A stretch of 64,000 nt of DNA, taken from assembly GCA_016795365.1 (NCBI GenBank), contig JAEUHN010000041.1, positions 62,001 through 126,000 on the forward strand. Reading direction: 5' to 3'. Under the pieces are notes generated by a model. The model worked only from the letters and a program-made list of their open reading frames with translations. It was not told the DNA's origin and did no database searches. A program made the position numbers and the translations under genes. Shown here piece by piece: positions 6,144 to 61,000 of this stretch; position 1 is the first letter of the stretch; every line of letters begins with the position of its first letter. The DNA is from Verrucomicrobiaceae bacterium (lineage in GTDB: Bacteria > Verrucomicrobiota > Verrucomicrobiia > Verrucomicrobiales > Verrucomicrobiaceae).

Positions 6144-9100
6144 ATGATTCGTCGTCTCTCCACTCTCCTCGCCCTGTCACTGCCCTGCATCGTGTTCGCT
6201 CAGAACGATTCGGGAGGCAATGACACGGGCCCCGACAAATCCACGTCCAGCGCCGAGAGCGTGTGGCGGTTTGGCAGTTCGGAGTCGCCAGGGGATTGGA
6301 TTGGCAAGGCGAAGCTCAACGAGCCCGGACCGCGCGCGCCGACTTATCCAAAGTTCGCCGCTGACAACAATGCGGCCCGATTTGATGGCGATGGCACGAA
6401 GCTTGCCCTCGAGGTGAAGGACAGCAACGAACTGCGGTTCGGCCTCAACGAGACGATCACGATCGAGGCCTGGGTAAAGGTGGCAGACCTCAAGAACGGC
6501 GCGGCTCCTTACATCGTGGGCAAGGGCCGGCTGGGCACCAAGGAGTTCGGCGACAAGAACCAGAATTACTCCCTGCGCCTCAAGGGCGAGAACGGCCAGG
6601 CCTTGATCGGATTCCTCTTCGCCAGTGCTGAGGTGCCGGGCAAGAAGGGCGACTGGCATCGCTGGTGGTCGAAGGAAGGCTTCAACTGGAGCAGCGGCTG
6701 GCATCACGTGGCCGTGACCTACACCTTTGGTAAACCGAAGAGCATCAAGGGCTACATCGATGGTCGTGAAACGGACGGCGTGTGGGACATGGGCGGAGCC
6801 ACGGATCGTGCGCCAGTGACGGATGGCGATGCGCTGGTCATTGGATCGGGGTCCACGCGTGCCGCGGCGCATTCGCTCAACGGCTGGCTGGACGATGTGA
6901 CGATTCATCGCGGGCCGCTCGATGCCGAGGTGCTGAAATCGAGATACGCCTTCGTCCCGCCGCCGCCTCCGGTGAACAAGAAGATGCTCACGCCCGGCAA
7001 AGTGCTGGTGCAGATCTGTGAATCTGGCGTGCCCGAGGCCAATGCCTGGCCACCTGAGCCGCCGAAGGGCGACGAGACCTACACGGAGGATGCTTTTGGG
7101 CTCTTTGAGATCCCTTATAAATACATCGACACGGGCGTGCGCGCAGATCGTGCGAATCCCTGCATGATCCGCACTGCGGCGCTGGTGACCTTGCCCAAGG
7201 GCAAGCATCGTCTGCTGATTCGCGGTCGTGGAGCCGTGCAGCTCTTCATTGATGGCAAGACGATCCTCACCACGCCCTTCGCCAAGCCAGACACCGGTGG
7301 TCACGGCATGGTAGCGGAGCAGAAGGATTACCTCGATCTTGGGCCTGACTTCCGCTTTGCCCCTCCAGGCAATCGAGAGGCGACTTGCGAGTTCGTCAGC
7401 GATGGCAAGGAGCACTTGGTCGTGATGGAGACGATGATCGGTGGCGTCGTGGGCAAGAGCAAGCGCCGCCCGGAATTGGGCGATACGGTAGTTGCCTGGT
7501 CGCCCGAGGGCAGTGAGTCTTGGAAATTGCTTGCACCAGGCAGCCGCGAGGTGGCCTATACCGATGAAGGCTGGGCCGCTTACGAGGCCGAAGGCCGTGC
7601 GAAATTGAATTCGATGAATGCCGCCGCTCGCCAGAAGGCGATGGAGGCGAATGCGGGGTATTGGACCAAGCGTCGTGAGGCTGCCAAGCAGTGGCTGGCC
7701 AAGACCAAGGAGGTGCCCGTGCCTGCGCTTCCCGCCGGGCTGCCGCGCAACAACGACATCGACAACTTCCTCGGCGCCACCATCGCTCGCGCGAAGGAGC
7801 AGAATGATGCGGCGCACCAGGGCACGGTCGATTTCTTCAAGCAGGTGCAACCCATCTTGGAAACCAAGTGCCTGGAGTGCCATCGCGGTGGCAAGGCCAA
7901 GGGCGGGCTTCAGCTCGACACGCTGGCTGCGGCGATGAAGGGCGGCGATGACAATGGCTCGGCGATCACGCCGGGCAAACCCGACGCCAGCTCCATCATC
8001 GCCCGCGTGTCCTCACATGATGAAGACGAAGTGATGCCGCCGAAGGGCGACAAGCTGACCAAGGCGGAGATCGAAACCCTCACCACCTGGATCAAGGAAG
8101 GAGCCAAGTGGCCGGAGATTCGCGCTGATCGCCTGGAGATCACCGCCTTGACCGACGATCTGACCTTCCTCCGTCGCGCCACGCTGGACACCGTGGGCGT
8201 GGTGCCCACGCTGGCTGAGATCGAGGCCTTCCAGAAGAACCCGGACCGCGCCGCCGCCATCGACCGCCTCCTGGCCGATCCACGCTGGGCGGACCACTGG
8301 ATGGGCTACTGGCAGGACGTGCTGGCCGAGAATCCCAACATTCTCAACCCCACTCTCAACAACACCGGACCCTTCCGCTGGTGGATCTACGAGGCGCTCC
8401 TCGACAACAAACCGATGGACGTCTTCGTGACTGAACTCTGCCGCATGAAGGGCAGCGAGCGCTTCGGCGGCCCGGCTGGATTTGCCACCGCCTCCCAGAA
8501 CGATGTGCCGATGGCGGCCAAGGGCACCATCGTCTCTGCAGCCTTCCTCGGCGTGGAAATGAAGTGCGCCCGCTGCCACGACGCCCCCGCTGCAAAGAGC
8601 ACTCAGGAGGACCTCTTCAAACTGGCCGCCATGCTCAACACGAAGGAACTCGACGTGCCGATCACCAGCAGCGTCAATCCCGACCGCTTCAAGATGACGG
8701 GCCGCAAGCCACTGATCTCGATCACGCTCACGGCCGGCACCAAGGTGCAGCCGAAGTGGTCGCTCGGTGAGTTTTGTGACGAGTCCGCGATGGCCCTCGC
8801 CGAGGACCCGACCAGCACCCGTGACCAGCTCGCGGCCTTGATCACCGCTCCCCAAAACGAGCGCTTCGCCCAGGTGATGGCCAACCGCGTGTGGGCACGC
8901 TTCATGGGCCGGGGGATCGTCGATCCTGTGGCAGACTGGGAAAAAGGCAAGCCTTCGCACCCCGAGTTGCTCAAGTGGCTGGGCCGGGAGTTTGTCCGTG
9001 GCGGCTACGACATGAAGCACATCGCCCGTCTGGTGATGAACTCCCATGCCTACCAGCGCTCGACCGATGCGGCCCTCAAGGAAACCAGTCCGGTCTTCGC

Positions 9101-9836
9101 CGCCCCGGCACCGCGTCGTCTCTACGCCGAGCAGATTGTGGACAGCCTCTTCTGCGCCACTGGCAAGCCTTTCAAGACCGAAGAAGTGAGCCTCGACATC
9201 GACAACCTCCGGGATGTGAAGAACAGCATCACCCTTGGCAACCCCACCCGCTCCTGGATGCTCACCAGCACCAGCAATGAACGCGACCGGCCGAGTCTCG
9301 CCCTGCCGCGCATCCAGGCGGTGGCCGATGTGCTCGGGGCCTTCGGCTGGCGTGGTGCACGTCAGGACCCCACTACCATCCGCGATGCCGCCCCCAATGT
9401 GCTCCAGCCTGCGATTGTCAGCAATGGCACCGTCGGTGTCTGGCTCACCCGCCTCAGCGACGACCACGGCATCACCCAGCTCGCGCTGGAGTCCCAGACC
9501 GTCGATCAGCTGGTGGACAAACTGTTCCTCAAACTCCTCACCCGCCACCCGACCGAGGAAGAGAAGTCGCTTTATATCAAGCACCTGTCCGCTGGCTACG
9601 AAACCCGCGTCCAGGCACCGAAACCCCGCGAGCCCAAGTCCAACCGGGCCCCGGCGAAGTATGTCTCCTGGTCCAACCACCTCGACGCCGAGGCCACCGT
9701 TGTCCGTCAGCAGCAGGAAGCTGCGGCCCGTAAGGGCGACGCTCCCACCGAGCGGCTCGAAGCCGAATGGCGCAAGCGCCTGGAGGACATCCTCTGGGCC
9801 ATGCTCAACTCACCTGAGTGGGCGTTCAGTCCGTAG
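6144..9836 (+). CDS. LamG-PA14-like-PSCyt1-DUF1549-DUF1553 secreted protein
   Basis: 1,230 residues, exported (signal peptide MIRRLSTLLALSLPCIVFAQ). Order of parts: a LamG domain (about 50-270, ITIEAWVKV and GWHHVAVTYTFG); a beta-rich PA14/carbohydrate-binding-like segment (about 290-460, HRLLIRGRGAVQLFIDGKTI); a short Ala/Lys helical region; a planctomycete-type cytochrome c domain PSCyt1 with CLECH (about 576-580) and the distal VMPPKGDKL; DUF1549/PSCyt2 (about 665-840) including a second Cys pair CARCHD; and DUF1553/PSD1 (about 905-1225, NRVWARFMGRGIVDP). The biochemical function of the family is not established; haem binding at CLECH is expected. Most relatives are paired with a DUF1501 gene, but none is adjacent here. 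Divergent from the esterase with a 156-bp gap in which I see no clear promoter. Confidence 0.88.
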   Translation: MIRRLSTLLALSLPCIVFAQNDSGGNDTGPDKSTSSAESVWRFGSSESPGDWIGKAKLNEPGPRAPTYPKFAADNNAARFDGDGTKLALEVKDSNELRFGLNETITIEAWVKVADLKNGAAPYIVGKGRLGTKEFGDKNQNYSLRLKGENGQALIGFLFASAEVPGKKGDWHRWWSKEGFNWSSGWHHVAVTYTFGKPKSIKGYIDGRETDGVWDMGGATDRAPVTDGDALVIGSGSTRAAAHSLNGWLDDVTIHRGPLDAEVLKSRYAFVPPPPPVNKKMLTPGKVLVQICESGVPEANAWPPEPPKGDETYTEDAFGLFEIPYKYIDTGVRADRANPCMIRTAALVTLPKGKHRLLIRGRGAVQLFIDGKTILTTPFAKPDTGGHGMVAEQKDYLDLGPDFRFAPPGNREATCEFVSDGKEHLVVMETMIGGVVGKSKRRPELGDTVVAWSPEGSESWKLLAPGSREVAYTDEGWAAYEAEGRAKLNSMNAAARQKAMEANAGYWTKRREAAKQWLAKTKEVPVPALPAGLPRNNDIDNFLGATIARAKEQNDAAHQGTVDFFKQVQPILETKCLECHRGGKAKGGLQLDTLAAAMKGGDDNGSAITPGKPDASSIIARVSSHDEDEVMPPKGDKLTKAEIETLTTWIKEGAKWPEIRADRLEITALTDDLTFLRRATLDTVGVVPTLAEIEAFQKNPDRAAAIDRLLADPRWADHWMGYWQDVLAENPNILNPTLNNTGPFRWWIYEALLDNKPMDVFVTELCRMKGSERFGGPAGFATASQNDVPMAAKGTIVSAAFLGVEMKCARCHDAPAAKSTQEDLFKLAAMLNTKELDVPITSSVNPDRFKMTGRKPLISITLTAGTKVQPKWSLGEFCDESAMALAEDPTSTRDQLAALITAPQNERFAQVMANRVWARFMGRGIVDPVADWEKGKPSHPELLKWLGREFVRGGYDMKHIARLVMNSHAYQRSTDAALKETSPVFAAPAPRRLYAEQIVDSLFCATGKPFKTEEVSLDIDNLRDVKNSITLGNPTRSWMLTSTSNERDRPSLALPRIQAVADVLGAFGWRGARQDPTTIRDAAPNVLQPAIVSNGTVGVWLTRLSDDHGITQLALESQTVDQLVDKLFLKLLTRHPTEEEKSLYIKHLSAGYETRVQAPKPREPKSNRAPAKYVSWSNHLDAEATVVRQQQEAAARKGDAPTERLEAEWRKRLEDILWAMLNSPEWAFSP

Positions 9837-15775: not shown

Positions 15776-15917
15776 GAAGGGCTCACAACTTTCATCAGCA
15801 GGGAGGGTTCGTGCTTGACCCTCGTCGGCGAACTCCCGTAATCTCGTTAAATCTCTGCAATCTTTGCATGCGCAAAGTAGTGCCAACAGGCGCTGGGTTT
15901 CCCATTCTCCACTTCTT
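15776..15917 (+). promoter_or_regulatory. Candidate promoter region of the giant DUF1800 gene
   Basis: TTGACC at 15815-15820 is a good -35 match; a weak -10 (GTAATC at 15838 or TAATCT one base later) follows at 17-18 bases. The start codon at 15918 has no obvious Shine-Dalgarno sequence. Weak support only. Confidence 0.3.
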
Positions 15918-18900
15918 ATGAGACATACACTTGTCCTCTTCTTCGCACTGGCCTTCACATGCCTGAGTCCCGATGCATTTGGAATCACTGACAATTACTC
16001 GACAGGCCCGGCGACGGGCGGTCCTGATACCCTCGATGACGTGTGGCAGTCGATTCACAATGCGTGGGGTCTCAGTGCTTCGGGAGATGAGGACTATGAT
16101 GGATGCTCGAACTATGTTGAAAGCCTTGCGGGAACGGATCCGCGCAATTCCACCGACTGTCTTGCCGTCGGCAACATGGCCATCAGCGCAGGCTCGGTGG
16201 TGGTGACGTTCAAAGCCGAAAAGGGCAAGAAGTATCAGGTGTGGGAGTCGGATACTCCGGTGGGTGCTCCGCCTGCCTCAGGCTGGACCATGGTGTCAGG
16301 GGCTTCCAAGATCAGCACGCAGGATCACGCGAATGACACGATCGTATTCACGAAGCCTGTGAACAGTCGCAAGTTCTACCGCCTTGAGTCCCTGGATGCG
16401 GACTCCGACGGTGATGGAGTTTCAGACTGGGCGGAGAACAAGCTGGGCATGGATCCCGCGATCGCGAGTTCCACGGGTAATGGGGCAACGGACGGTGACA
16501 CGCTGGCATCGCTTCTGTCTTTGACCGTTCAGTCGACGACGAATGGTTTTGAAAAAGATGACAAGACGGCTCCGAGTCCCGCTGCGGTTCCTGGCAAGCT
16601 GAAGCTGGTGCGCACGGTGGGCACGATGGCGCTCAATGGATTATCTTTGATCGGAGCTCCAGGAGCGCCCGCTGCTGAGAAGTCCAGTGCAACCCCACCT
16701 GGGACGGGTGCTGATTATACCTTGGCGACCTTCAGCATTCCTGCGGGGCAAGGTGTGCCAGGCACGCCATACGATGCGGCGGTGACTCCGGTGCAGGATG
16801 CTTTGGATGAGGTTCCCGAGTATGCCAAGATCACGGTGGACCTGCCGGGCAGCATCACTGCTGCTGGACCATCTGGAACGCTGTGCATCTGTGATTCGGA
16901 TCCTGCCAACCCGGCCAATAACCAGCTCTACGTGGCCTACCTCGGACATGAAGCTGGGCAGGCCACTACAGCTAGCGGCTATGCCACGGCCCTTGTGAAG
17001 GGAGATAATACCAGTGCCTCGATTTCCATCGTGTTCAGCAACCTGTCATCCGAGCAGAACACGGCCTACATCCGATCAGGGCCAAATTCGGATCTGGCTC
17101 CCGCGCTCCCGAATGGGCAGGTGTCCGGCACGACCTACAACATCGAATACAAGCCGGGCTTCTATTCCACCGACCAAGGCTTCCTTGACGCCCTGCGCAC
17201 GTCCAACATCTGGTGCGCGATTACCTCCGCGAACTTTACCGGCAAGGAGATTGCCGGACCGTTCAACAAGGCAACAGGCTCCATCACCTTCGATCCCGAT
17301 AATCCAACACTTGACGCTCCGGTCACAGGTTCGTCCAGCTGGCAGACGGCGACTAACGAGCAGATCGAGCGCGACATCTGGCGCTTCATGAACCAGTGCA
17401 CCTGGGGCGGCACGCAGGCGATGTATATTGCGATTCGCGGGAAGGTCGATGCGCGTATCGGGGCACTGAGCGGCACGCCCACGGCGGCTCAGATCACAGA
17501 TGCTTACATCCAGGGATTGAGCGACTGGCTCGACGAGCAGATGAATCCGGCGCTGACTCCAACCGTAAACTTCCGCACGCTGGTTATGGCGGCGGACAAT
17601 GAGGAGTTCGAAATGCGAGGGAACAAGCCCTATACCTATTCGAACGACCCGAGCTTCAACGGAACCCGGTATGCGGTGACCTTTGACAATGCGGGTAATC
17701 CTACGGTGAGCACCACGGCGGACAATAACTTCGCGGGCAACAACTACCCGCAGAGCGGACCGAATCGCCGCCGCGAGTGGTGGTCCATCATGCTCCAGGG
17801 CAAAGATCAGGTGCGTCAGCGCTTCACTCAGGCGCTGAGCGAAATTGTCATTATCTCTGAGGCTGACCAGACCGTTCTGGACCGTCACTACGGCTGCGCG
17901 AACTACTGGGACATGCTGGCGGAGAATGCCTTTGGCAAGTATCGCACGCTCCTGGAGAAGGTGACCTACAGCCCAATGATGGGCGTTTATCTCTCGCACA
18001 TGGCCAATCGTGCTGCGTATGATGCAGGCGGTGGCATCATCGTTAGCCCTGATGAAAACTATGCGCGTGAGATCATGCAGTTGTTCTCCATCGGCCTCGT
18101 CCTGCGCCACCCCGATGGCAGTCTCCAGTTGGATTCGGCTGGTCTTCCCATCCCGACTTACGATCAGCGGGACATCACCGAATTGGCCCGCGTGATGACC
18201 GGCTTCTCACACGGTGCTCGCCATGCGATTGGCTACACCTCTAGCTGGAACAGCTCGACCTTGTTGTTCAATAACAGCAGCAACAACCGCGTGAGCGACC
18301 TGGTGGTGTTCAACTACAACTCGTCGGTCACAGCCGCAAACTTCTCGAATGGCAACAACAACTGGTTTGGTCGCGCTGATGATCACCTTTTCTGGGCAGC
18401 CCCGTGGACCACGCCGATGAAAGTCATTGGTCGTATTAGCGACGCCACACCCACGACTGTCGGCTCGATCTATTACCATGACTTCAATCAGTATGTGGAC
18501 CCTGATACGGGCGATCCAGTGGCCAACGTTTCCAAGCGCTTGCTGGCTGGCAAGCATGGCCAGTATGACATTCCCATGCGCTCGCTGCCTGCGCTTGGAC
18601 GCGGTGCCAATGACATCACCTGTCACAACCTTGCCGATCTGGATCTGACCGCTGCTCACAATGCGCTCGCTGGTGATCCCACGCAAAGCACCTATGGTGC
18701 AGGCACGCAGGCCAGCCCAGGACATACCAATACGCCGGTCAACATGTGCCGCTGGCTGATCCAGCGCCTAGTGACTTCCAATCCGTCCGCAGGCTATATC
18801 TTCCGTGTGCAGGAAGTGTATCGTAATACTAATGGCAACCTGGGGGCTGTGCTCAAGGCGATGCTGCTGGACTACGAGGCGCGCTCCTTGCAGCTCGCAG

Positions 18901-21900
18901 ACAGTTCGATCTCGCACGGGAAGGTGAAGGAGCCTCTCGTGGCCTTCACTCAGATGTTGCGCACGCTTCGCGCTTTCTCAGGGGCTCCGATTTCCATCCT
19001 CAAGGATCAGGTCCCCAACATGTCCGGCACAGATACGCCGATGCCCACGGCCTACCCGCTGAGCGAGTATAACAAGTTCTCAATAGACAACGCGAACCCT
19101 CCTTCGCTGCCGACTGGCTGGGCCACGGGTCCGTTCCGCTATCGTTTCGGCGATCTTACGAGCAATATCGGTCAGAGCCCGCAGCGTCCGCCCTCGGTCT
19201 TCAATTGGTTCCTGCCTGACTATGTGGTGCCAGGTCCTATGGCAGAGGCTGGGCTGTTCGCACCTGAACTTCAGATCAACACCGAGGCCAGTGTCGTGGC
19301 CAAGGCCAACATGTTCTACGCCTACACCTGGAGCAACCTCACCGGTATGAGCACGCAGCCAGGAGCAGACACCAATGTTTCTGACTTTATTCTGAACAAT
19401 GGGAACGCCACACCTGCGGTGCGCTTGTCCTTGGATGGTGGCGTCACTTTTGTGAACTCGATCACCTTCACGCCTACTGACTTCTCTGCCAAGACGGTCA
19501 CGGTGGTGGGTGGCAATACCAACTGGCTGAGCAACGTGGACAATAGTCTGCTGCGTTTCAGCGTGAGTGGTGCGGCGGGCTATGATGCCCTCCCGGTCGC
19601 TCCCATGACTATCGGATTCCAGGACACGGACAGCGCTAATGAAGGCATTCGCGCCGAGCACACGTCGTTCAATACGTGGGTGCAGGAAGGTGTTGGAGGG
19701 AAGACGGACATTGTGAACGTCCGCCTTCACTCACCGCCGCCTGCTGGCAGCACTGTGGACGTGAACATCACTACAGGCGGTCAGGTTTCAGTTTCACCCA
19801 CCACCGTGTCCTTCAACGACACCGATTGGAATACGGTCAAGACGGTGACGGTGAGTGCGGTGGAAGATGCTGTCACGGAAGCTCCGAGCGCCGTGGGTGA
19901 CACGCTCACCTTCACCGCCAGCAGCGCTGCTGCCAGTTACAATGGCCTGACGGCTACACTGCCTGTCGGTGTCGTGGATAACGACGATGGGGCGAGCAGC
20001 TTCCATGTTCTTGTAACGGAAGTGGGTAGTGACACCGTGGTCGGTGAATCCAGCACGCAGACCACCGTGCTTGCCAATGTGGTGGACAACTTCAACATCG
20101 TCCTTACCAGGCAGCCTAGTGCGAACGTGACGGTGACCATCACCCCGTCCAACACTCAGGTGCAGCTCAATACTACTACTGGCGGCACGACCTATGGCGC
20201 TGCGGGTGCTGCCGTGACGCGCACATTCACTAACGTCAACTGGGCCACCGCTCAGGAAGTGCGCGTGCGTGGCAATGCTGACACCACTGCCGAGGGCTCC
20301 TTCGAGCAGAACCCCACCAACAATGCCATCATCACCATCACGGCCAATGGGGGCGGCTACCTCACGGCCAATCCGGTGCAGCAGGTGGTGGCGAAGATTC
20401 TGGATGACGACAATCGCATCATCATGACCCCTAGCGGTGGTGAAACGATCGTTCAGGAAGGCGGTATCGCGGATACCTTCACCGTCCAGTTGCGCGTGAA
20501 TCCGACGGTGCCGGTGACGGTGAACCTGGGTTCCAATCATGTCCGCTGCACGCCCACGAATCTCGTGTTCCACCCCACCGGGGGCACGCCCGGACCGGGT
20601 GAAACCATCTGGAACGTGGCGCAAACGGTGACGGTTACCGCCATTGATGATCACCTCAATGAAGGCCGCATGATGCCGCTGACTCCGAATGCAATTCCCA
20701 CGGTGGCAACGGCGACGAGCACGGTCGCCAGTGGTGCCCTCACGGCCCTCACGATGACCAATCAGGGTGCCGGCTACACCGTGCCGCCCATCGTGAGCTT
20801 CAGCGGCGGCGGTGGCAGCGGTGCCGCTGCGTCTCCGGTTCTATCTGCTGACGGCAGAATCACCGGCCTCACTATCACGGCGGCCGGATCGGCCTACACT
20901 TCGGCTCCCACGGTGACCATTACTCCGCCGTTCTCAGGTAATGCAGCCATTGTGGCCAGCGCTACTTCGGCAGGCGTGGCGGACACGGGTTACAACAACT
21001 ACTGGAGCGTCACGCACAGTTCCCTGGGCGTCACGATCATCGACAACGACAACGCAGGCGTGAATGTCGTCGCCACTGGCGGTGACACGACTGTGGTCGA
21101 AGGTGGTGCCACGGACACCGTGGACATCTCCTTGCGTCAGCAGCCTGCGGCGAATGTGACGGTTAACCTTACTGCCAGCACCCAGGCGTTGGTTTTCCCC
21201 ACGACTCTGACCTTCACGCCTGCCAACTGGAACAATGCCCAGACGGTGACCGTTACCGCTATCAACGACACCTCGGTCGAGGCGGACACGCTGACCAATA
21301 TCGGGGTTGTTGTTGATTCGAACGATATTGCCTATGACGGCGTTAAGACGAAGTCGATCGCAGCGACGGTGATCGATAACGACTTTGTGCCCCTTGGCAT
21401 TGGTCACTCCAATGGCTGGACTACGGTGGCAGAGGGTGGTGCTGTGGGTAATAGCACGGATACCCTGGTTCGTGCTTCGGACACCTTTACCGTGAATCTG
21501 GGCCGCACTCCCACCGCGAATGTGACGGTGACACTCGTGACTGATGGTCAGATTTCGGTCTCCCCATCGACGCTGACCTTCACCACCAGCAACAGTGGCA
21601 CCAACCAAACGGTGACGGTAACCGCCGTGGACGATGGGGTAGCAGAGACTGCGATGCACAACAGTCTGCTGCGCTTCGTCATCAGCAGCGCGGATCCCTT
21701 TTACAACAATCCACGCAACACCCCGATGAATATCCCGGTGCGGGACAATGACGCCAATGGTATTGCGTTGTTTGAAACCAACGGCAGCACGCAGCCAACA
21801 GAAGGCGGCACGGATGCAGTCTCGGTGGTGCTCACCAAGGCCCCGACCAGCAGTGTGATTGTGGACTTGGTCTCCAGCAACACCGCCGAAGCGACGGTGC

Positions 21901-24638
21901 CTGCTTCGCTGACTTTCACGACTGCCAACTGGAGCACGCCGCAAAGCTTCAATGTCACCGCCATCGGTGACATGATCAATGAGGGTCGTGAGGTGTATAA
22001 CGTCAGTGTCACCGCGCGCACCACCGGGTCTGATGCTGCCTATGCCGGTCTCACTGGCTGGACTTATGACGGATTTAAAGCCGTTAACAACCAGGTGATT
22101 AACTACATCACGGACAATCATCGCCGTAACGAGAACCTGATTATCGTGCCGAGTGGTGGGTCCATTCGCAGCAATGACGCACAGCCTACAGGGGGCAATA
22201 CCTGGGTGACGGAAGGCAGCAGCGAAACCGACAGCGTGGAAATCTACCTCGCCAGCCCACCCGTGATTCCCGTGACCGTCACGCTGGATGCAAATTCCCA
22301 GATGGCCTTCAATCAGAGCGTGTTCTACTTCGATAGCACGAACTGGAATGTGCCGCAGACTGTAGTCATTAGCGCGATTGATGACGCCTTTAATGACGTT
22401 GCTCTCGCCGCCGCTGGCAATACGGCTTACAACCAGGCGCAGAACATCCAGTTCCGATGCTTCGGCGATCCCACCTACCTGGGCATCGCACCCACGCATA
22501 CAGTGAACATCCTGGACAATGATGCGCCTGCCGTGAGCATTTCCCAGACGGGTGGCATCACGAGCACCGTGGAAGGCGGGGCCACAGACACCTACAGCAT
22601 CGTGCTCACCACGCCCCCCAATGGTGATGTGGTGATCACTGCCACGCCTGCCAATACCGGCACCACGCTGAACAATGTGACCACGGGTGCCAAGAGCTTC
22701 ACCTTCAATGCATCGAACTGGAATGTGCCGCAGGTCGTCACGGTCCTGGCCGCTCAGGACACGACGGTCGAGGGCAATCATCAGGTGAACGTCACTCATG
22801 CCATCAACGTGGCGCTGACCACTGACACCACCGGCTATGCCGCGAACACCTCGGGCACCTCCACCTTGAGCCTCCAGACCGTGGTGAACAACATCTCGGA
22901 CGATGACAACCGCATCATCGTCAACGTTACGGGCCTTGAAACGCGCGTGCATGAAGATGGCTCGAAGAGTGACACCTATAGCATTGTGCTGCGCAGCGCT
23001 CCATCAGGTGCGAACACAGTCACCATCACCCCGAGTGTCACGGGTGGATTCGCTGCCTCTGGACTCTCGATTAGCCCCGCGACGCTGATCTTCAATAGCA
23101 GCAACTTCAGCACCCCTCAGTTCTTCACTCTTACGGGTGTGAACAACAGCATTGATGCCGAGCGCGCTCGCACGGTCACGATCAGCCACACATCCGCGAG
23201 CGGTGACGCGAACTTCAATGCCCAGACCATCCACCAGGTGGCCGTGAGCCAGCTGTCCACGGACACGCCGCGCATCATGTTTGTGGGCAGCCCGAACATC
23301 CATGAGAACGGCAACACCGGCACTTACACCGTGGCGCTCAATCGAGCACCCACGGCGGATGTGACTGTGGTGGCCACGGCCAACAGCCAGCTGGAGATTG
23401 CTCCGCCTGTGCCAGCTGGCGGCACCCTGGTTTATGGACCGACGGCGACGTTGACCTTCACCTCGGCAAACTGGATGACACATCAAACAGTCACCATTCG
23501 TGCGATCGATGACTCGCTCGTGGAGTCCTACATCCATTACAGTGGCGAGGTGACTCATACCTCCAGCAGCACGGATGCGACCTACAACAACGTGTCTCCG
23601 CTTTACAAAGTGGTGCCGCTCATAACGGACAATGAGTTCCCTGCCGTCCGGATCATTCCATCGGGGGGCACCACCGTGATTACCGAGTCTGGCACGTCTG
23701 ATACCTATGATATCGTCCTCAGCCAGGCACCCACGGCAGATGTGACGGTGACCATCACACCTGATGCCCAGAGCACCGTTTCTTCTTCCAGTGTGACGTT
23801 TACTTCAGGCAACTGGAATGTGCCGCAGCCCATCACGGTAACGGCGATGAACGACACCGCTACGGAAGTGAATCACACCAGCACCATTACCCATGGCAAT
23901 GCGACGAGCGCAGATCCTGCGTTCAATGGCTTGCCGGTGCCGCTGCTCATCGCCAGCATCACAGATGATGATGGTCCGCAGGTGCAGCTCGTTGAATCTG
24001 GTGGCAATACTACGGTGGTTGAGGCCGGTGCCAATGACACCTTCACCATTGGTCTCAGCCAGGCTCCGACCGCCAACGTCACCGTCACCTTCAGTCCGCC
24101 GGTGTATATCATCCCGCCCCCTGCTTATTCCAAGCAAGTCGGTTACTTCACCAGTGACCTGAGCGGTTCAAATCAGCAAAAGGATCGTATCGTTCTGGAC
24201 TACACCGAGCTGATTCAGCTCTATCGGGACACCTTCTATGATCACCTCGAAAGCGTCTATGGCACCGGAGCTATTCCGATCGTTCCGAGTGATGTGAATT
24301 TGCAGAATGCTCACTGGGCAGCCAGCAAGGCGATTGTGGATAAGACCGACCTTTGGTGGTGCGGTGGTAGCCTGAAGGCCAGGAACCCGGTGCTCATCGA
24401 GCCAAATCAACCTGCTCCAGTTCCGCTGCCACCGGCCAATCCTCGCCAGGTGCTCATGGAGTGCATCTATCAGATCAATGGTGGCGCGAACAGCCTGGGC
24501 ACCACACGGTATGAGCCCGAGATCGTTTTCGATCCGAAAAACCCGCCGAACACGACCTTTGCCAATGAGATCCGGGACCGCTGCCGTTGGATTGGCTACC
24601 TCAACTCCACAGTGATGCCAGGCTTTGTGCAGCACTAA
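15918..24638 (+). CDS. Giant exported DUF1800 protein with a Calx-beta-like repeat array
   Basis: 2,906 residues from ATG 15918; the signal peptide is MRHTLVLFFALAFTCLSPDA (an upstream TTG at 15864 would spoil it). Two Asp-rich calcium-type motifs (DEDYDGCSNYVESLAGTDP and DADSDGDGVSDWAENKLGMD) precede a DUF1800 domain (about 475-1115): RRREWWSIMLQGKDQVRQR, YAREIMQLFSIGL, and SPQRPPSVFNWFLPDYVVPG. Then come about 12 Calx-beta-like repeats of 110-140 residues, each roughly GG.T.V.EGG..DT..I.L...P...V.V, an NW..(P/A)Q.VTV.A.DD strand, and a closing I.D(N/D)D. The last repeat breaks off and a unique tail of about 170 residues ends in DRCRWIGYLNSTVMPGFVQH. DUF1800 function is unknown; relatives pair with DUF1501, as here. 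Probably a cell-surface or secreted calcium-binding protein; that is inference. Confidence 0.88.
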   Translation: MRHTLVLFFALAFTCLSPDAFGITDNYSTGPATGGPDTLDDVWQSIHNAWGLSASGDEDYDGCSNYVESLAGTDPRNSTDCLAVGNMAISAGSVVVTFKAEKGKKYQVWESDTPVGAPPASGWTMVSGASKISTQDHANDTIVFTKPVNSRKFYRLESLDADSDGDGVSDWAENKLGMDPAIASSTGNGATDGDTLASLLSLTVQSTTNGFEKDDKTAPSPAAVPGKLKLVRTVGTMALNGLSLIGAPGAPAAEKSSATPPGTGADYTLATFSIPAGQGVPGTPYDAAVTPVQDALDEVPEYAKITVDLPGSITAAGPSGTLCICDSDPANPANNQLYVAYLGHEAGQATTASGYATALVKGDNTSASISIVFSNLSSEQNTAYIRSGPNSDLAPALPNGQVSGTTYNIEYKPGFYSTDQGFLDALRTSNIWCAITSANFTGKEIAGPFNKATGSITFDPDNPTLDAPVTGSSSWQTATNEQIERDIWRFMNQCTWGGTQAMYIAIRGKVDARIGALSGTPTAAQITDAYIQGLSDWLDEQMNPALTPTVNFRTLVMAADNEEFEMRGNKPYTYSNDPSFNGTRYAVTFDNAGNPTVSTTADNNFAGNNYPQSGPNRRREWWSIMLQGKDQVRQRFTQALSEIVIISEADQTVLDRHYGCANYWDMLAENAFGKYRTLLEKVTYSPMMGVYLSHMANRAAYDAGGGIIVSPDENYAREIMQLFSIGLVLRHPDGSLQLDSAGLPIPTYDQRDITELARVMTGFSHGARHAIGYTSSWNSSTLLFNNSSNNRVSDLVVFNYNSSVTAANFSNGNNNWFGRADDHLFWAAPWTTPMKVIGRISDATPTTVGSIYYHDFNQYVDPDTGDPVANVSKRLLAGKHGQYDIPMRSLPALGRGANDITCHNLADLDLTAAHNALAGDPTQSTYGAGTQASPGHTNTPVNMCRWLIQRLVTSNPSAGYIFRVQEVYRNTNGNLGAVLKAMLLDYEARSLQLADSSISHGKVKEPLVAFTQMLRTLRAFSGAPISILKDQVPNMSGTDTPMPTAYPLSEYNKFSIDNANPPSLPTGWATGPFRYRFGDLTSNIGQSPQRPPSVFNWFLPDYVVPGPMAEAGLFAPELQINTEASVVAKANMFYAYTWSNLTGMSTQPGADTNVSDFILNNGNATPAVRLSLDGGVTFVNSITFTPTDFSAKTVTVVGGNTNWLSNVDNSLLRFSVSGAAGYDALPVAPMTIGFQDTDSANEGIRAEHTSFNTWVQEGVGGKTDIVNVRLHSPPPAGSTVDVNITTGGQVSVSPTTVSFNDTDWNTVKTVTVSAVEDAVTEAPSAVGDTLTFTASSAAASYNGLTATLPVGVVDNDDGASSFHVLVTEVGSDTVVGESSTQTTVLANVVDNFNIVLTRQPSANVTVTITPSNTQVQLNTTTGGTTYGAAGAAVTRTFTNVNWATAQEVRVRGNADTTAEGSFEQNPTNNAIITITANGGGYLTANPVQQVVAKILDDDNRIIMTPSGGETIVQEGGIADTFTVQLRVNPTVPVTVNLGSNHVRCTPTNLVFHPTGGTPGPGETIWNVAQTVTVTAIDDHLNEGRMMPLTPNAIPTVATATSTVASGALTALTMTNQGAGYTVPPIVSFSGGGGSGAAASPVLSADGRITGLTITAAGSAYTSAPTVTITPPFSGNAAIVASATSAGVADTGYNNYWSVTHSSLGVTIIDNDNAGVNVVATGGDTTVVEGGATDTVDISLRQQPAANVTVNLTASTQALVFPTTLTFTPANWNNAQTVTVTAINDTSVEADTLTNIGVVVDSNDIAYDGVKTKSIAATVIDNDFVPLGIGHSNGWTTVAEGGAVGNSTDTLVRASDTFTVNLGRTPTANVTVTLVTDGQISVSPSTLTFTTSNSGTNQTVTVTAVDDGVAETAMHNSLLRFVISSADPFYNNPRNTPMNIPVRDNDANGIALFETNGSTQPTEGGTDAVSVVLTKAPTSSVIVDLVSSNTAEATVPASLTFTTANWSTPQSFNVTAIGDMINEGREVYNVSVTARTTGSDAAYAGLTGWTYDGFKAVNNQVINYITDNHRRNENLIIVPSGGSIRSNDAQPTGGNTWVTEGSSETDSVEIYLASPPVIPVTVTLDANSQMAFNQSVFYFDSTNWNVPQTVVISAIDDAFNDVALAAAGNTAYNQAQNIQFRCFGDPTYLGIAPTHTVNILDNDAPAVSISQTGGITSTVEGGATDTYSIVLTTPPNGDVVITATPANTGTTLNNVTTGAKSFTFNASNWNVPQVVTVLAAQDTTVEGNHQVNVTHAINVALTTDTTGYAANTSGTSTLSLQTVVNNISDDDNRIIVNVTGLETRVHEDGSKSDTYSIVLRSAPSGANTVTITPSVTGGFAASGLSISPATLIFNSSNFSTPQFFTLTGVNNSIDAERARTVTISHTSASGDANFNAQTIHQVAVSQLSTDTPRIMFVGSPNIHENGNTGTYTVALNRAPTADVTVVATANSQLEIAPPVPAGGTLVYGPTATLTFTSANWMTHQTVTIRAIDDSLVESYIHYSGEVTHTSSSTDATYNNVSPLYKVVPLITDNEFPAVRIIPSGGTTVITESGTSDTYDIVLSQAPTADVTVTITPDAQSTVSSSSVTFTSGNWNVPQPITVTAMNDTATEVNHTSTITHGNATSADPAFNGLPVPLLIASITDDDGPQVQLVESGGNTTVVEAGANDTFTIGLSQAPTANVTVTFSPPVYIIPPPAYSKQVGYFTSDLSGSNQQKDRIVLDYTELIQLYRDTFYDHLESVYGTGAIPIVPSDVNLQNAHWAASKAIVDKTDLWWCGGSLKARNPVLIEPNQPAPVPLPPANPRQVLMECIYQINGGANSLGTTRYEPEIVFDPKNPPNTTFANEIRDRCRWIGYLNSTVMPGFVQH
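19375..24105 (+). repeat. Array of about 12 Calx-beta-like protein repeats
   Basis: Coding repeats inside the giant gene. Recognisable repeat ends with DNDD/DDDN/DNDA type turns occur near 19985, 20410, 21050, 21385, 21755, 22520, 22910, 23635 and 23970. The DNA copies have diverged strongly, so this is old duplication rather than recent slippage. The third- and fourth-from-last units (22905-23640) lack the full EGG motif. The first unit (about 19375-19630) lacks the N-terminal strand and the last (about 23975-24105) lacks the C-terminal half. Confidence 0.8.
20730..20945 (+). repeat. GxGYxxxPxV-type insert within one Calx-beta-like repeat
   Basis: In-frame segment of about 70 residues interrupting a repeat: LTMTNQGAGYTVPPIVSF, a GGGGSGAAA turn, then a second half LTITAAGSAYTSAPTVTITP. 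The paired GxGY...P.V / GSxYxxxP.V pattern is a small beta module also seen in phage and planctomycete/verrucomicrobial structural proteins (family recalled, not searched). Confidence 0.6.
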
Positions 24639-24686: not shown

Positions 24687-26456
24687 ATGAACCTTCTCCT
24701 CCGACGCAACGAAGATCGCTCGAAGCCCAACCGTCGCGACTTCCTGCTCCAGAGCAGTGCCGCCTCTCTGGGCCTGACCTCCATCGTCAACAGCCTCGCA
24801 CAGCTCAAGCTGATCGGGTCCGCAGCTGCTCAGGGAGCTGGCGACTACAAAGCCCTGGTCTGCTTCTTCCTCAACGGAGGCAATGATTCTAACAACCTAC
24901 TCATTCCAGCTGGCTCTACCAGCGCTGCGCGCACGGCTTATGTCAATGGACGTGGTGCCACGGTGCTGGCTATTCCTGATGCCAGTTTTGACTTCACGCC
25001 AGCGAATGCTGCCAATGGTTACTGGAACGGCACGGCGAACAGCACGGCTGCTGTCACCTCCCGTATCACGCCGAGCAATAGTGGGGCCTATGATCCAAGC
25101 ACTGGATACACAGGCAATGAGATGGCGCTCCATCCCGGTGCCTACCCACTGAAGACTATGTTTGATGCTGGTGACCTGAGTTTCATCGCCAATGTAGGCA
25201 CGCTGGTCGGCACTACGGCTGTGACGCGTTCGAACTTCAATACCCTCCCTGCAGCCGCCAAGCCACCGCAACTCTTCTCTCACTCCGACCAGCAGGTGCA
25301 GTGGCAGTCCTCTTTGCCAGACCAGCCCTTCTCACGTGGCTGGGGGGGGAAGATCGCCGATCTTCTGTCGGGCTTGAACACGGGCGACCTGAGTATGTCG
25401 GTCTCGATCGCCGGAGTGAACAGCTTCCAGGTGGCCTTTGACCAGCCGGCCTACTTCATGAACAGCTCGGGTGCCGTGTCGGCGCTCAGCGGCTTCAATA
25501 CGACGGCCCACCCATACGGCAGCAGCCTCCGCAACACGTCGTTGCAACCCATTTACACCAATCCGGTCACCACTCCTGCAAACAAATACAATCCCATGGC
25601 GGGCCTCCGCACCGGAGGTGACCCGCTGTCAGGAACGAACTACCAGCACAGTGCCGCCGGATGGAGGTTGAGGGCCATTGAGCAGATTATGGCCATGCAG
25701 CACGCCAGCCTGTTAGACACCGGCTACAACACCGCTCCCGAGAGCGCTCGCATCACCGAAGGTCTCGTGGGTAACGCCTTGGCGCAGACGGCCAACAGCG
25801 ACGGCACTAGCACCTTGGACTTGCATTGGAACAACTGGTTCCAGAACGGACTGTTCAATCCCCGTATTCCCGACATCGCGAATCAGATGAAGGTGGTGGC
25901 CCGCCTCATTGCCGGACGAAGCCAGCTGTCCAACAACCGGCAAATCTTCTTCGTGCAACTGGGCGGCTGGGACACGCACACCACTCAAATCCCGGGCCAG
26001 ACCACCGCAGGCCACTACGGGCTCGTGAATCAGATGAGCCGTGCGATTCGTGCGTTCAAGGACGCCATGGTGCAGATCGGCATGTGGAACAACGTGCTGC
26101 TATTCAGCGCATCGGATTTCAACCGCACATTGACCCCGAACAAGAGCGACAACAGCGCGGGCTCTGACCATGCGTGGGGTGGCCACATGTTCGTGGCGGG
26201 TGGTGCTGTCAAAGGTGGCAAGATTTGCGGGCAGTTCCCCAATCTCACCGTCAATGGAGGCATCGATTGCACTGGCAATCGCGGGCGTTGGATTCCCAGC
26301 ACGGCAACGGATCAGGTCTTTGCAAGCGTTGCGAAATGGTTCGGCTGCTCGGATGGGCAGATTTCGACGGTTTTGCCTAATTTCACCCGTTTCCAGAGTG
26401 ACCTCACGAGCGGCACACTCATCGCGAAGAACCTGGACTTCCTGAACTTCACTTAG
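24687..26456 (+). CDS. DUF1501 protein, partner of the DUF1800 gene
   Basis: 589 residues, exported by a Tat-like signal (NRRDFLLQSSAASLGLTSIV). DUF1501 proteins have an alkaline-phosphatase/sulfatase-like fold. Visible landmarks: LVCFFLNGGNDSNNLLIP near residue 55 (the first metal-site region of the fold), ALHPGAYPLKTMFDAGDLSFIANVGTL, LFSHSDQQVQWQSS, FFVQLGGWDTHTTQ (about 415), and SDFNRTLTPNKSDNSAGSDHAWG (about 475-500), where Asp and His residues align with the metal ligands of the fold. It begins 48 bases after the DUF1800 stop, the usual DUF1800-DUF1501 order, so the pair likely acts together outside the cytoplasm. Substrate unknown. Confidence 0.9.
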   Translation: MNLLLRRNEDRSKPNRRDFLLQSSAASLGLTSIVNSLAQLKLIGSAAAQGAGDYKALVCFFLNGGNDSNNLLIPAGSTSAARTAYVNGRGATVLAIPDASFDFTPANAANGYWNGTANSTAAVTSRITPSNSGAYDPSTGYTGNEMALHPGAYPLKTMFDAGDLSFIANVGTLVGTTAVTRSNFNTLPAAAKPPQLFSHSDQQVQWQSSLPDQPFSRGWGGKIADLLSGLNTGDLSMSVSIAGVNSFQVAFDQPAYFMNSSGAVSALSGFNTTAHPYGSSLRNTSLQPIYTNPVTTPANKYNPMAGLRTGGDPLSGTNYQHSAAGWRLRAIEQIMAMQHASLLDTGYNTAPESARITEGLVGNALAQTANSDGTSTLDLHWNNWFQNGLFNPRIPDIANQMKVVARLIAGRSQLSNNRQIFFVQLGGWDTHTTQIPGQTTAGHYGLVNQMSRAIRAFKDAMVQIGMWNNVLLFSASDFNRTLTPNKSDNSAGSDHAWGGHMFVAGGAVKGGKICGQFPNLTVNGGIDCTGNRGRWIPSTATDQVFASVAKWFGCSDGQISTVLPNFTRFQSDLTSGTLIAKNLDFLNFT

Positions 26457-38787: not shown

Positions 38788-41118
38788 CTATTCGCGGGTC
38801 ACAGTTTCATCCAGATTCAGAAGAGTGCGGGCTTGGTTGAGCGAGTCCAACTTGTTCAGCACGGCGAGTTCGTCCGGTTTCGGATCACGAGCGGTGCAGC
38901 GTTTGAAGGCGGTCTCCAGGCCATCTTTTTTGATGACCTTTTCCAGGGCGGTGGCGAACTCATAGAAGCCGCTGTCGTTCATCAGCGTGAGAGCTTGCAG
39001 CGGGGTGTTGCTGCGGATGCGGCGGGTGCAGGAACTGAACCCCTCCGGGGCATCGAAGACGGTGAGCGAAGGGGGCGGCGAGGCGCGATAGACGAAGGTG
39101 TAGAGCCCGCGGCGATACTTGTCCTCGCCTTTGCTCACGGCCCAGACGCGCTTCACCTGGCCCTGACCCATGACGCCATCAGGGATAGGTGGATAGACGG
39201 GAGGTCCGCCGAGCTTGGGAGACAGCAGTCCGCTGGCAGTGAGGCACACATCGCGCACGACTTCGGCATCGAGGCGAAGTCGTGTCTGACGAGCGAGCAG
39301 ATAGTTGTTCGGGTCTTGCTCGCGCAACTCAGGCCGGGTGGCGGAGCTTTGACGATAGGTGTGCGAAGTGACGATGAGCTTGTGCATCGCCTTGAGGCTC
39401 CACTTTTGAGCAAGCATTTCCATGGCCAGCCAGTCGAGCAGTTCAGGGTGCGAAGGCAGTGTGCCTTGGGAACCAAAGTCGTTCTCGGTCTCGACGATGC
39501 CGCGACCGAAATACTGCTGCCAGATGCGGTTTACGATCACGCGTGCGGTGAGCGGATTCTGCGGGCTCGTCAGCCATCGGGCGAGATCGAGTCGGTTCGG
39601 CTGCTGGCTGGGCGATTCAAAAGCATGAAGCACTTTCGGAGTGCCTGGAGTGACTTCGTCGGCAGGGCGGGTGAAGTCACCTTTGATGAAGACGTTGGTC
39701 TTGCGTGGCTTCGGCAGTTCCTTCATCACCATGGTGGTGACGCCTTGGTTGAGGAGCGTGTCGAGTTCCTTGTGGCGGTCATTCAGCTCACGGAACGGAC
39801 CCACACCGCCCACGCCGGCAGCGAAGAGGGTCTGTTTTTGCTCGATCGTGCGCTTGGCCTTGGGCACGGCGAGGATCTTGTTCACGGCACCATTGAGGCT
39901 CTTCTTGATCGCGGGAGTGATGCCCGCTTCCCAGGCATCGAGATCGGCCTGGTGATCCTTGATGTAGGCCTTGAGCTTGGCATCGACTTCTTTGAATTCG
40001 GCGGTGAGTCCGCTGACATCGACATGCGGGTCAAAGACCTTGAGCGTGGGTTCATCCTGGTTGTTCAGGAAGGCGAAGAGGCGGTAGTATTCCTTCTGCT
40101 CGATGGGATCAAACTTGTGATCATGGCACTGTGCGCAGCCAATGGTCAGCCCTAGCCACACACTGCCGGTCGTCGCCACACGATCGAAGACGCTGTCGAT
40201 GCGGAACTGTTCCTTGTCGATACCGCCCTCTTGATTGATCTGCGTGTTGCGATGGAAGCCAGTGGCGATCTTCTGGTTCTCCGTGGCATTTGGCAGCAGA
40301 TCACCCGCGAGCTGTTCGATGGTGAATTGATCGAAGGGCATGTCCTTGTTCAGAGCCTCGATCACCCAGTCGCGGAACTTCCAGATCTGTCGCGGCGCAT
40401 CAATCGAGTAGCCATTGCTGTCGGCATAACGCGCCTGATCCAGCCACCAGCGGCCCCAGCGTTCGCCGTAGTGCGGGCTCTTCAGCAAACGATCCACCAG
40501 CGCGCCATACGCGGCCTCGGAGTCCTTCGCTGAGGCTTGGACAAAGGCATCCACCTCGGCGGGTGTGGGAGGCAAGCCCGTGAGATCGAGCGACACCCGG
40601 CGAATCAGCGTGGCACTGTCGGCGAGAGGTGATGGCTTGAGCTTGGCCGCAGCCAGACGGTCTTGAATGAAGCGATCGATGGGATGCTCAGCACCTGCCA
40701 CGGTAGGCGGCGTGACGCGCTTGGGCGATTCGAAGGACCAGTGACGCTCATACTTCGCGCCTTGCTCGATCCAGGTCTTGATCACCTCGCGCTGGCGTGC
40801 CGAGAGCGGTGGTTTGTGCGACTTCGGCGGCGGCATCAACTCATCCTTGTCCTCGCTGATGATGCGCTGCCAGACGTCCGAGTCCTTCAGGTTTCCTGGC
40901 ACGATGCCGCGAGAACCCTGGCGATTCTCCGTGGCACCTTCGAAGGTGTCCAGCCGCAGTTTGGCTTCACGATGCTTCGGATCGAATCCATGACAGGCAA
41001 AGCAGTTCTCCGAGAGGATCGGACGCACATCGCGGTTGAACTGAATCTGCACAGCAGAATCAGCGGCGTGGGCCACATGCAGGGAGGCAAGGGTGAGGGG
41101 CAGGAGAAGACGTTTCAT
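38788..41118 (-). CDS. PSCyt1-DUF1549-DUF1553 exported protein
   Basis: 776 residues from ATG 41118 (AAGG a few bases upstream); longer in-frame starts to 41223 would bury the signal peptide MKRLLLPLTLASLHVAHAA. PSCyt1 with haem motif CFACH (about 39-43) and MPPPKSHKP; DUF1549 (about 145-350: SLDLTGLPPTPAEVDAFV, YGERWGRWWLDQARYADSNG, FDQFTIEQLAGDLLP) with a second pair CAQCHDHKFDP; then DUF1553 (about 480-750: NPLTARVIVNRIWQQYFG, LPSHPELLDWLA). No LamG domain, in contrast to the 6144 gene. Forms a two-gene unit with the DUF1501 gene and is divergent from the Rrf2 regulator. Confidence 0.93.
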   Translation of the reverse strand: MKRLLLPLTLASLHVAHAADSAVQIQFNRDVRPILSENCFACHGFDPKHREAKLRLDTFEGATENRQGSRGIVPGNLKDSDVWQRIISEDKDELMPPPKSHKPPLSARQREVIKTWIEQGAKYERHWSFESPKRVTPPTVAGAEHPIDRFIQDRLAAAKLKPSPLADSATLIRRVSLDLTGLPPTPAEVDAFVQASAKDSEAAYGALVDRLLKSPHYGERWGRWWLDQARYADSNGYSIDAPRQIWKFRDWVIEALNKDMPFDQFTIEQLAGDLLPNATENQKIATGFHRNTQINQEGGIDKEQFRIDSVFDRVATTGSVWLGLTIGCAQCHDHKFDPIEQKEYYRLFAFLNNQDEPTLKVFDPHVDVSGLTAEFKEVDAKLKAYIKDHQADLDAWEAGITPAIKKSLNGAVNKILAVPKAKRTIEQKQTLFAAGVGGVGPFRELNDRHKELDTLLNQGVTTMVMKELPKPRKTNVFIKGDFTRPADEVTPGTPKVLHAFESPSQQPNRLDLARWLTSPQNPLTARVIVNRIWQQYFGRGIVETENDFGSQGTLPSHPELLDWLAMEMLAQKWSLKAMHKLIVTSHTYRQSSATRPELREQDPNNYLLARQTRLRLDAEVVRDVCLTASGLLSPKLGGPPVYPPIPDGVMGQGQVKRVWAVSKGEDKYRRGLYTFVYRASPPPSLTVFDAPEGFSSCTRRIRSNTPLQALTLMNDSGFYEFATALEKVIKKDGLETAFKRCTARDPKPDELAVLNKLDSLNQARTLLNLDETVTRE

Positions 41119-41294
41119 TGAGCCTTGAGGCATTCGTAGATACGTCTGAAACAAGCCATCTTTGGCTGCCATGTGCGAGCTGGAAAATCCAGCTCTCCAC
41201 GCCTGGAAAAAGATGGCAGGCAAGAGCGGAGCGCCGCTGTCATTTTGGTGGCGCTCTCACCCATGCTGCGGCATGAGCGATGTGTTCCCGATCT
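41119..41294. promoter_or_regulatory. Divergent intergenic region with three inverted repeats
   Basis: Between the PSCyt1/DUF1553 gene and the Rrf2 regulator. Holds GAGCTGGA-AAA-TCCAGCTC (41177-41195, perfect 8-bp arms), GAGCGCC/GGCGCTC (41229-41235 and 41250-41256) and CATGC-TGCG-GCATG (41262-41275). The first is the best candidate for an operator of the divergent Rrf2 protein. No clear -35/-10 boxes. Confidence 0.4.
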
Positions 41295-57928: not shown

Positions 57929-58059
57929 CGTTGGTGTTGGTAGCTGTGGTTGGGTTGGGAGGCGAGTTGGAAACGGAGGCAGAAATGAAATGGCTCGCGA
58001 GAGCGCTGAAAAACAGTTCCCCGGTTGACTAGGACGAAGGGTCAGGTGCATGTGTGAGC

Positions 58060-61000
58060 ATGAACAGTTCTCTCACTCTCTCGAGAATGGGTAGGCCAGC
58101 GGCTATCGGGCGTAGCGTGGTGTTAACCGCCGCCATCGTTCTCGGAATGGCAATGAACAACGCCAGTGGTCTCGAGGTCACCTTCAGCCATTCCAACAAG
58201 TCGTTTTCTGGCCAGACTGGGTCAAGTAGCACGAGTGTCCGGTTCTATGTGGAGCCGACCGGGCATTCGGTTTCTGCGACCATGAGCTTTGATGGCAAAA
58301 CGGTGAAGGCCACCTCGGGGACTCTGGTGATCAACACCCGGCGAGTATTGGAACGGACGAGCGACTATGCTGTGCTCTCCGATTCTCCTTACACCATCAC
58401 CGCGACTGCGACCCTTCAGCCCAAGAACGATGGTTTCGGAGGAACCGTCTGGTGGGGCTGGGCGCATTTGGGGGGCGAGCTTGCCGGGATGTCAGTCGAT
58501 ATTGGCGTCGCGCGGTCCCCGAACGACGGACCCTACATGTATTCGTTGGGTGGGTCGGTGGGCACGTTTGCTACCGACCCTCCGCAGTATAGTTTCGCCT
58601 TGGGTAACTTCGTCAGTGATGCGGGTGGAGGAGGACTCGCCTCCTACCATCCAGTGATCGATGCGGCACCTGTGGTAACGATTAGCAAACCGGTCGCCAG
58701 TTCGGTCTTGAGCACGTATGTGGAAATCGCTGGCACGGCCTCAGACTACCAGGGTGTTTTGCGAGTGAACTACGTTGTCACCAATGCTGCCGGCGTTGAG
58801 GTGAAGACTGGGGCAGCCAATCTGGTGACCGTGAAGCCGGGCCAGATGGATGTAAGCCCGAATGTGGTGAACTGGAGCACTGGCGAGCTGTTCCTTCCGC
58901 CCGGCACGTTCACGGTGTCGGTGATCGCAGACGATACGAAGGGCCATTCATCAACTCCCTCGCTGAGAACGTTCAGCGTCACCCCGTCGAGCCTAACTGC
59001 CGGCGATTACATCCCGCTGACGCCAACGCTAAGTTACTACGATCCGTATGTATCTCCAGCGCCAAAAGCGTTTCGTGCAGCAATCTCTGGAACCTTCGAA
59101 GGCACGATCACGAAGGCCAGACTCATCGCTGGAAACACCGTGGCGGGTGACAATAAGAAGGCCTCCGGCTGGTGGGTGGCGAGCGAGATCACTCCTGCGG
59201 GCACACCTGTCGTGATCGAACCGGGTGGACTTTCATACTACAGCGCTTCGGCGATGACCGTGGATGCCACGCTTATCAATTTGCTGGGCGGGCCAATCAA
59301 GCAGCCTTCGCCCGCTGGCATGTTGATCTCACCTTTGATCCTCGCTGCTCCACCCTTGCTCCATCCTGATGGCTTCGCATTGGTGTATAACTTCTCGATG
59401 CAGTTCTACCAACCTCCGGGCTGGGATACGCGAGGTGTGAGCCATTCGACGGTGCCGTTGCAGTTGCGACTTCTCTATGAGCGAAAAGAGCCGGGCTCGC
59501 CTGTGCTGCACCGCCTTCCATCGAACCGTGCTCTTCTGGTGGATCTTAGCCAGGGTGACATGGCAGACATCATGGCGCTGAAGAGCGCGCTCATTTACCC
59601 CACCAGTCCATCCACCTTTGCGTCTGGCTGGACGACTCACGAGCCCAAGAACGGTCCTGTGGATCTGACGCAGCAGGGCAAATGGAACAGCGTGTTTTCC
59701 GAGACCGACCGCCTGTCGAACAATCTGGTGTCCCTGGCACCCGGGCAGGTTAAACCGCAGGGAAATGGCTCCCTGTCGAACTTCACCTTTGTCGCGAGGA
59801 ACCGGCCGGATGATTTCATCAAGCCGGTGGCCAGTGATCCTGCCATGCAATGGCGGCAGCGGGATGAGGAACAGATCCTCGACAAGCGTGCAGTGATCAG
59901 CCTCCAGCTGTGGGCAGCCGTGAGGCCGGAGATCTATGGTGCTGCCGTGGTGCAAGGGACCAATGGAACGGGCGCGCCAGTGGTGGGTGCTGACCGTGCG
60001 GCTCCTGTGGTGAAAGTGACGTCTCCAGCCAATGGTGCCCGCATCAACTTCGTCGGCACAGTGACCATCAATGGCACTGCCTCGGATGCGGTGGGGGTGA
60101 CAGCAGTTGAGCTTCGGAAGGAATCCAGCACTTCCTGGACTCCCGCCACGATCACTCCAGCAGGTGCCAAGAACGTGACGTGGACAATGAACCAGGACAA
60201 TCTGCCCGCAGGGCTCACGACTTTCTATGTTCGCTGTCGCGATGCTGCGGGCAATCAGTCCGCCGAGGTGAAGTGGAGTCTCACTCTGGTGCGCAACCGC
60301 ACCCTGACGATTGCTAAAACCGGAAGTGGTATGGTCACTGTCGGCTTTGACCCCACCAGCGTGCGCGAGGCGGGAAAGACCTACACGATTGTCGCCACTC
60401 CCGCTCAGGGCTGGCGATTTTCGAAGTGGGAGGGAAGCGCAATCGTAGCCAACGATGCTCAATCGACTACGACCTTCGTGATGCCTGACGCCGATGTGAC
60501 GCTGGAGCCGGTGTTCGTGACTACAACGCTTTCTTCCCTTGTCGGGGCCTACAATGCGGCGGTGGGTATCAGCGTTGCTCCCGATGGCGCCAGTGCATAC
60601 CAGATGCCGAATGACATGGGCAAGTTGAGCGTGGTGGTCACGCCCACGGGGACGTTCAGCGGCACACTGACTTTAGCGTCTCAGTATCCGGCTCCGAGAG
60701 CAGTTGTGGTCTTCCGGTTGGCGGGTGTCTTGGATGGCAATGACAGCTATTCGACCATGCTTGCCCGGACGGGCAAACCTCCGGTTCAGTTAAGCTTTGG
60801 CCTTGGCTACGATCCTTCGGGGCGTCCGGTTTGTTCGGGTAGCGTCAAGTGTGGAAGCAATCCTCGCGCGACCTTCTCAGGGATCCGTCAGACTGTCTTC
60901 ACCAGCGCGAATCCATGCTGGAGACAGGGGCGTTATCCGTTTCGCTTGATCAGTCCCACGTCCGCAACGGCCTTGCCTCTGGTTCCTTGTGATGGCTGGG

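Follow-up and report, generated by a model that had tools for sequence, protein, structure and literature searches.

In the window, a stretch of 64,000 nucleotides from a Verrucomicrobiaceae bacterium, positions 15864-24638 form one stop-free reading frame, whose best start, an ATG at 15918, gives a protein of 2906 amino acids. The protein matches DUF1800 (PF08811) well above the curated cut-off (E=3e-56; 191.8 bits against a cut-off of 26.1), and a Pfam search of its full length returned no domain above cut-off besides DUF1800; NCBIfam gave no match. Its parts are listed in Table 1: two segments of DUF1800 are separated by an array of about 1,560 residues, comprising about 13 Ig-like modules (repeat counts are HMM matches, and diverged units may be missed). 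The N-terminal region before DUF1800 has a weak CHRD-like match at window 16956-17258 (E=0.042, below cut-off). The Gly-rich segment that breaks one of the repeats (GAGYTVPPIVSFSGGGGSGAAASPVL...) is an insertion within the insertion, and the array of the homologue that carries a similar segment (L050, in genome G031) holds more foreign segments breaking repeats, with GIPAGTTVxSIxxGTxFxxS-like motifs.

Table 1. Features of the DUF1800 protein and its downstream partner, in window coordinates.
Feature	Position	Strand	Basis or remark
Secreted protein of 2906 aa, DUF1800 split by an Ig-like (Calx-beta-like) repeat array	15918..24638	+	
Signal-peptide-like leader, residues 1-22	15918..15983	+	read from the sequence alone
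DUF1800 first segment, residues 478-1166, ending at the loop where array-less homologues continue	17349..19415	+	Pfam and alignments
GQSPQRPPSVFNWF motif, conserved across homologues	19170..19211	+	
Cut first repeat, represented by its C-terminal half (repeat HMM positions 39-113 of 113)	19416..19631	+	
Internal repeats, 12 HMM matches, some partial	19644..23972	+	
Foreign Gly-rich segment nested in one repeat	20715..20957	+	similar segment in homologue L050
Cut last repeat, represented by its N-terminal half (repeat HMM positions 3-41)	23979..24101	+	
DUF1800 second segment (tail), residues 2729-2906; the L086 model suggests about five helices	24102..24635	+	
DUF1501 partner, twin-arginine leader (SKPNRRDFLLQ)	24687..26456	+	Pfam and leader

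A DUF1501 gene (PF07394, E=7e-28), whose product begins with a twin-arginine leader containing NRRDF, lies 48 bases downstream. Most homologues, array-bearing or array-less, have a DUF1501-like neighbour with a twin-arginine leader; these were called by position, length and leader, Pfam being applied to the window's own gene only. Since the partner accompanies both kinds of homologue, the array alters a pair that already existed and does not define it. DUF1800 and DUF1501 are reported to form a conserved pair without an assigned function and to have been co-transferred with chitin synthase genes (PMC5122149), and our literature search found no paper on DUF1800 function. The proteins described here resemble the pair elsewhere in bacteria in having the core, the C-terminal block, and a downstream DUF1501 gene with a Tat leader, but in their case Ig-like repeats totalling about 390 to 1850 residues interrupt DUF1800. 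Elsewhere in the window are two PSCyt1/PSCyt2/PSD1 (DUF1549/DUF1553) proteins (6144-9836, plus strand, and 38788-41223, minus strand), one with a Laminin_G-like domain, and a protein of 1370 aa that combines a bacterial Ig domain with a divergent InlB B-repeat domain (58054-62166).

A contiguous domain is usual in the DUF1800 family, although it is no requirement for membership. In the window protein the domain is not contiguous: about 1,560 residues lie between profile position ~377 and the tail. The match found in the genome search falls into two pieces (profile positions 10-194 and 238-376 of 419), so that the last forty or so positions are missing ahead of the array, while array-less members from Verrucomicrobiota span the profile from 1 to 418. 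The missing block lies beyond the array. The 178-residue tail is matched (47 bits, E=3e-14) by a profile of the C-terminal block of array-less homologues from outside Verrucomicrobiaceae, the nearest rows from that family having been left out, and none of 200 shuffled tails scored below E=2. By this match the domain is complete, including its C-terminal helices, and the tail is identified from its sequence as the C-terminus of DUF1800. If the tail were instead an unrelated C-terminal domain, the array would merely follow DUF1800, and one could point to the lack of a Pfam match to the tail alone and to the mere 4 bits gained when core and tail are joined and scored against Pfam DUF1800, a check suggested in the preliminary description that is weak taken alone. 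The match to the array-less profile refutes this reading, which the contiguous core and tail of array-less homologues also contradict, and we regard it as highly improbable. Forty-eight array-less homologues can be aligned from the conserved motif through to their ends, and the comparison that had likewise been proposed finds array-less members within Verrucomicrobiaceae itself whose core is directly continuous with the tail. DUF1800 is interrupted by an Ig-like repeat array, as the preliminary description had proposed, and its view that the unique end resembles the DUF1800 C-terminus also holds. Its placement of the insertion just before the last helix was slightly off: the array precedes about five helices, corresponding to roughly the final 40 Pfam profile positions, and not the last helix alone.

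Within Verrucomicrobiaceae, the tail was detected in 32 of 68 genomes, and named relatives include Prosthecobacter, Brevifollis gellanilyticus, and Verrucomicrobium. Array-less homologues, among them one from Verrucomicrobium sp. BvORR106, are 1218-1293 aa long; in their size class of full frames, about 1220-1280 aa, a loop of ~40 residues connects core and tail. Array-bearing frames fall into size classes of 1610-1720 aa (short array), about 2400-2560 aa, and 2940-3270 aa; across paralogue clades the array has about 3 to 15 units and the insert about 390 to 1850 residues. The window's own genome encodes a 2510-aa paralogue with the same order of parts and a tail 52% identical. The genome is a 6.7 Mb draft in 55 contigs, which might raise the suspicion of a sequencing or assembly artefact, or of a recent chance fusion in one genome, but this is refuted by the same architecture in many independent genomes, including the isolate Brevifollis gellanilyticus. 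Their cores are tens of percent diverged with low dN/dS, and the paralogue repeats the architecture within the genome itself; the chance of such an error is negligible.

When the whole order was searched, long frames with strong tail matches were confined to Verrucomicrobiaceae. The tail-bearing frames found outside the family encode 1060-1293 aa, with the sole exception of one of 1727 aa, which is array-less, and no further array insertions were found in the four frames of 1650-1727 aa with weak tail matches that were fetched. In a maximum-likelihood tree of the DUF1800 core, the array-bearers form one clade (100% SH-aLRT) nested among array-less lineages, with the array-less L102 as its sister, and the array label requires one change. 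On this tree, then, the array was inserted once, in an ancestor of part of Verrucomicrobiaceae. The root is drawn at the midpoint, but Proteobacteria and the other array-less Verrucomicrobiota fall outside the array clade, and absence of the array is therefore likely to be the ancestral state. Three DUF1800 genes among the Verrucomicrobiota rows of the tree (L128, L129, and L143) come from Anaerolineales (Chloroflexota) MAGs, a placement that reflects either horizontal transfer or a binning error.

The array begins and ends within a repeat. A repeat HMM (113 positions) was made from whole internal repeats; against it, the first repeat in all 36 distinct complete arrays starts at position 19-52 (mean 41) and reaches 112-113, and the last repeat in the same 36 ends at 40-52 (mean 44). 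The register of the array is thus permuted: it starts with a C-terminal half and ends with an N-terminal half, which in every clade sum to about one whole repeat. In the window protein, the cut in the last repeat seen in the preliminary description is borne out by the HMM, which matches over positions 3-41 of 113 only, and to this we add that the first repeat is cut too, in a manner complementary to the last. Against the repeat profile, the last half reaches 44 bits and the first half 49 bits, compared with 52 and 76 bits for internal halves and about 0 bits for the wrong-half control. All segments, including both halves and the tail, are under purifying selection relative to the nearest relative (dN/dS 0.02-0.08, rough values since dS, at 1.2-1.5, is high, and for the last half, of 40 codons, it is saturated). 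Units are collinear within the window's clade, and between the two paralogues the array ends are collinear and differences in unit number lie mid-array. A single origin followed by expansion in whole units would be expected to leave one shared phase, so phase alone is no proof that the halves pair, and the argument for pairing has to be carried by structure.

Structure was predicted with AlphaFold2 for a natural short-array homologue, L086 (residues 506-1646, 1141 residues with both DUF1800 segments; pLDDT 80, pTM 0.70), with pairing of the halves read from DSSP strands and from changes in confidence between models. The alignment behind the first model was three rows deep over the last half and included 16 misaligned tail fragments. 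The repeats are modelled as Ig-like sandwiches and the tail helices mostly have pLDDT 75-96. The last half contributes strands A, A', B, and C and the first half D', D, E, F, and G, which add up to the strands of one whole repeat. With the last half and the tail removed, the first half falls by 8.1 pLDDT, loses strand D, and has a shortened strand E, while whole repeats are unchanged (-0.8 and +0.4 pLDDT). The loop before the first half falls by 12.3 and the adjoining part of DUF1800 by 4.6, which would fit packing of the tail in this region; since the truncation took out the tail along with the last half, the test of pairing is partly confounded.

It is possible that the array was inserted into DUF1800 but that its end halves do not pair, being remnants of an insertion in arbitrary register that DUF1800 or adjacent repeats cap, with the array forming a flexible hairpin. 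One insertion followed by duplication of whole units would preserve any initial phase, and the loops beside the split are poorly predicted in the L086 model. Arguing for pairing, on the other hand, in every clade the two halves total about one repeat and each still matches the repeat profile. Removing the last half and tail, moreover, costs the first half strands and confidence but leaves whole repeats as they were, and we therefore consider unpaired halves rather unlikely. Pairing of the halves, and with it closure of the array into a loop, seems to us an even bet or slightly better.

The label 'Calx-beta-like' given to the repeats in the preliminary description is supported by their predicted fold and only weakly by their sequence. 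The window repeats have no match to Pfam Calx-beta (PF03160), a repeat of one homologue scores below the cut-off (18.5 bits against 27; E=0.0022), and a PDB sequence search with DUF1800 and with the repeats gave no credible relative. Predicted repeat structures match, among others, the CBD12 region of the Na-Ca exchanger NCX (3us9 and 3rb7), with a Foldseek E-value of 1.9e-5 and a Z-score of 8.7 over two domains for 3us9. PapD-like chaperones match as well or better (up to Z 11), so the Calx-beta match is not specific, and C5 and CD109 are unspecific fold matches as well. 'Calx-beta' is a fold-level label here, given to predicted models: like Calx-beta and CBD12 the repeats are modelled as Ig-like beta-sandwiches, and their sequence match to that family is below the Pfam cut-off. 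Judged by eye, the repeats have acidic ends, DND and VDD, which we take to resemble Calx-beta calcium loops.

Our preferred explanation, to which we give a probability of about 0.72, combines a single insertion, a permuted register, paired halves, and an array looped out at the surface of DUF1800 in a spacer or scaffold role. A tandem Ig-like, Calx-beta-like array entered a loop of a secreted DUF1800 protein once; after export, the two DUF1800 segments would assemble into one fold despite the intervening array, and the half repeats may pair to form one complete beta-sandwich beside the insertion site. The ends of the array would in this way be clasped at the DUF1800 surface and the array closed into a loop, in the middle of which whole units could be gained or lost with neither fold disturbed. 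The loop might then act outside the cell as a spacer or adhesive scaffold that the DUF1800/DUF1501 pair holds in place, and a surface scaffold or spacer would be the most likely role for the array protein. Whether the array is in full a closed, expandable ring of Ig-like domains, whose ends are the halves of one domain clasped on the surface of the interrupted host domain, we put at even odds. If it is, the ring would let a long domain array expand within another fold and put no strain on it.

Rings of Ig-like domains that include a split domain occur in macroglobulins, such as complement C3/C5 and alpha-2-macroglobulin, and the likeness to the arrangement proposed here is one of architecture. 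Other comparisons can be made with split Ig-like domains in RTX adhesins (PMC10865825). There, too, an Ig-like domain is interrupted by other sequence, both chain ends of the insert lying on the same side, but the insert is a ligand-binding domain within a single split Ig-like domain, whereas here the split unit consists of the first and last pieces of a long array, which in turn interrupts DUF1800. In tandem domain swapping, a 'terminal domain' is similarly formed from both ends of a tandem sequence, but as a misfolded state (PMC6863430), whereas here the sequence itself sets the register. Our literature searches found no paper on Calx-beta arrays in a DUF1800 setting and none on nested tandem arrays.

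Further implications concern how such an array grows and where it sits. In bacterial surface proteins, long Ig-like arrays are normally stalks, placed between domains or at a terminus. Here an entire array of variable length lies inside another domain, and array-less relatives provide a natural before-state, so that both the tolerance of a fold for a giant insertion and the growth of such an array become testable; the 3-unit version is of a size suited to structural work. The large loop also gives a concrete clue to which side of DUF1800 is exposed. In a separate DUF1800 protein (L166; G137:C112:12800-18600), a different segment with a carbohydrate-binding-like appearance lies elsewhere in the domain, which suggests that DUF1800 may tolerate insertions at several loops.
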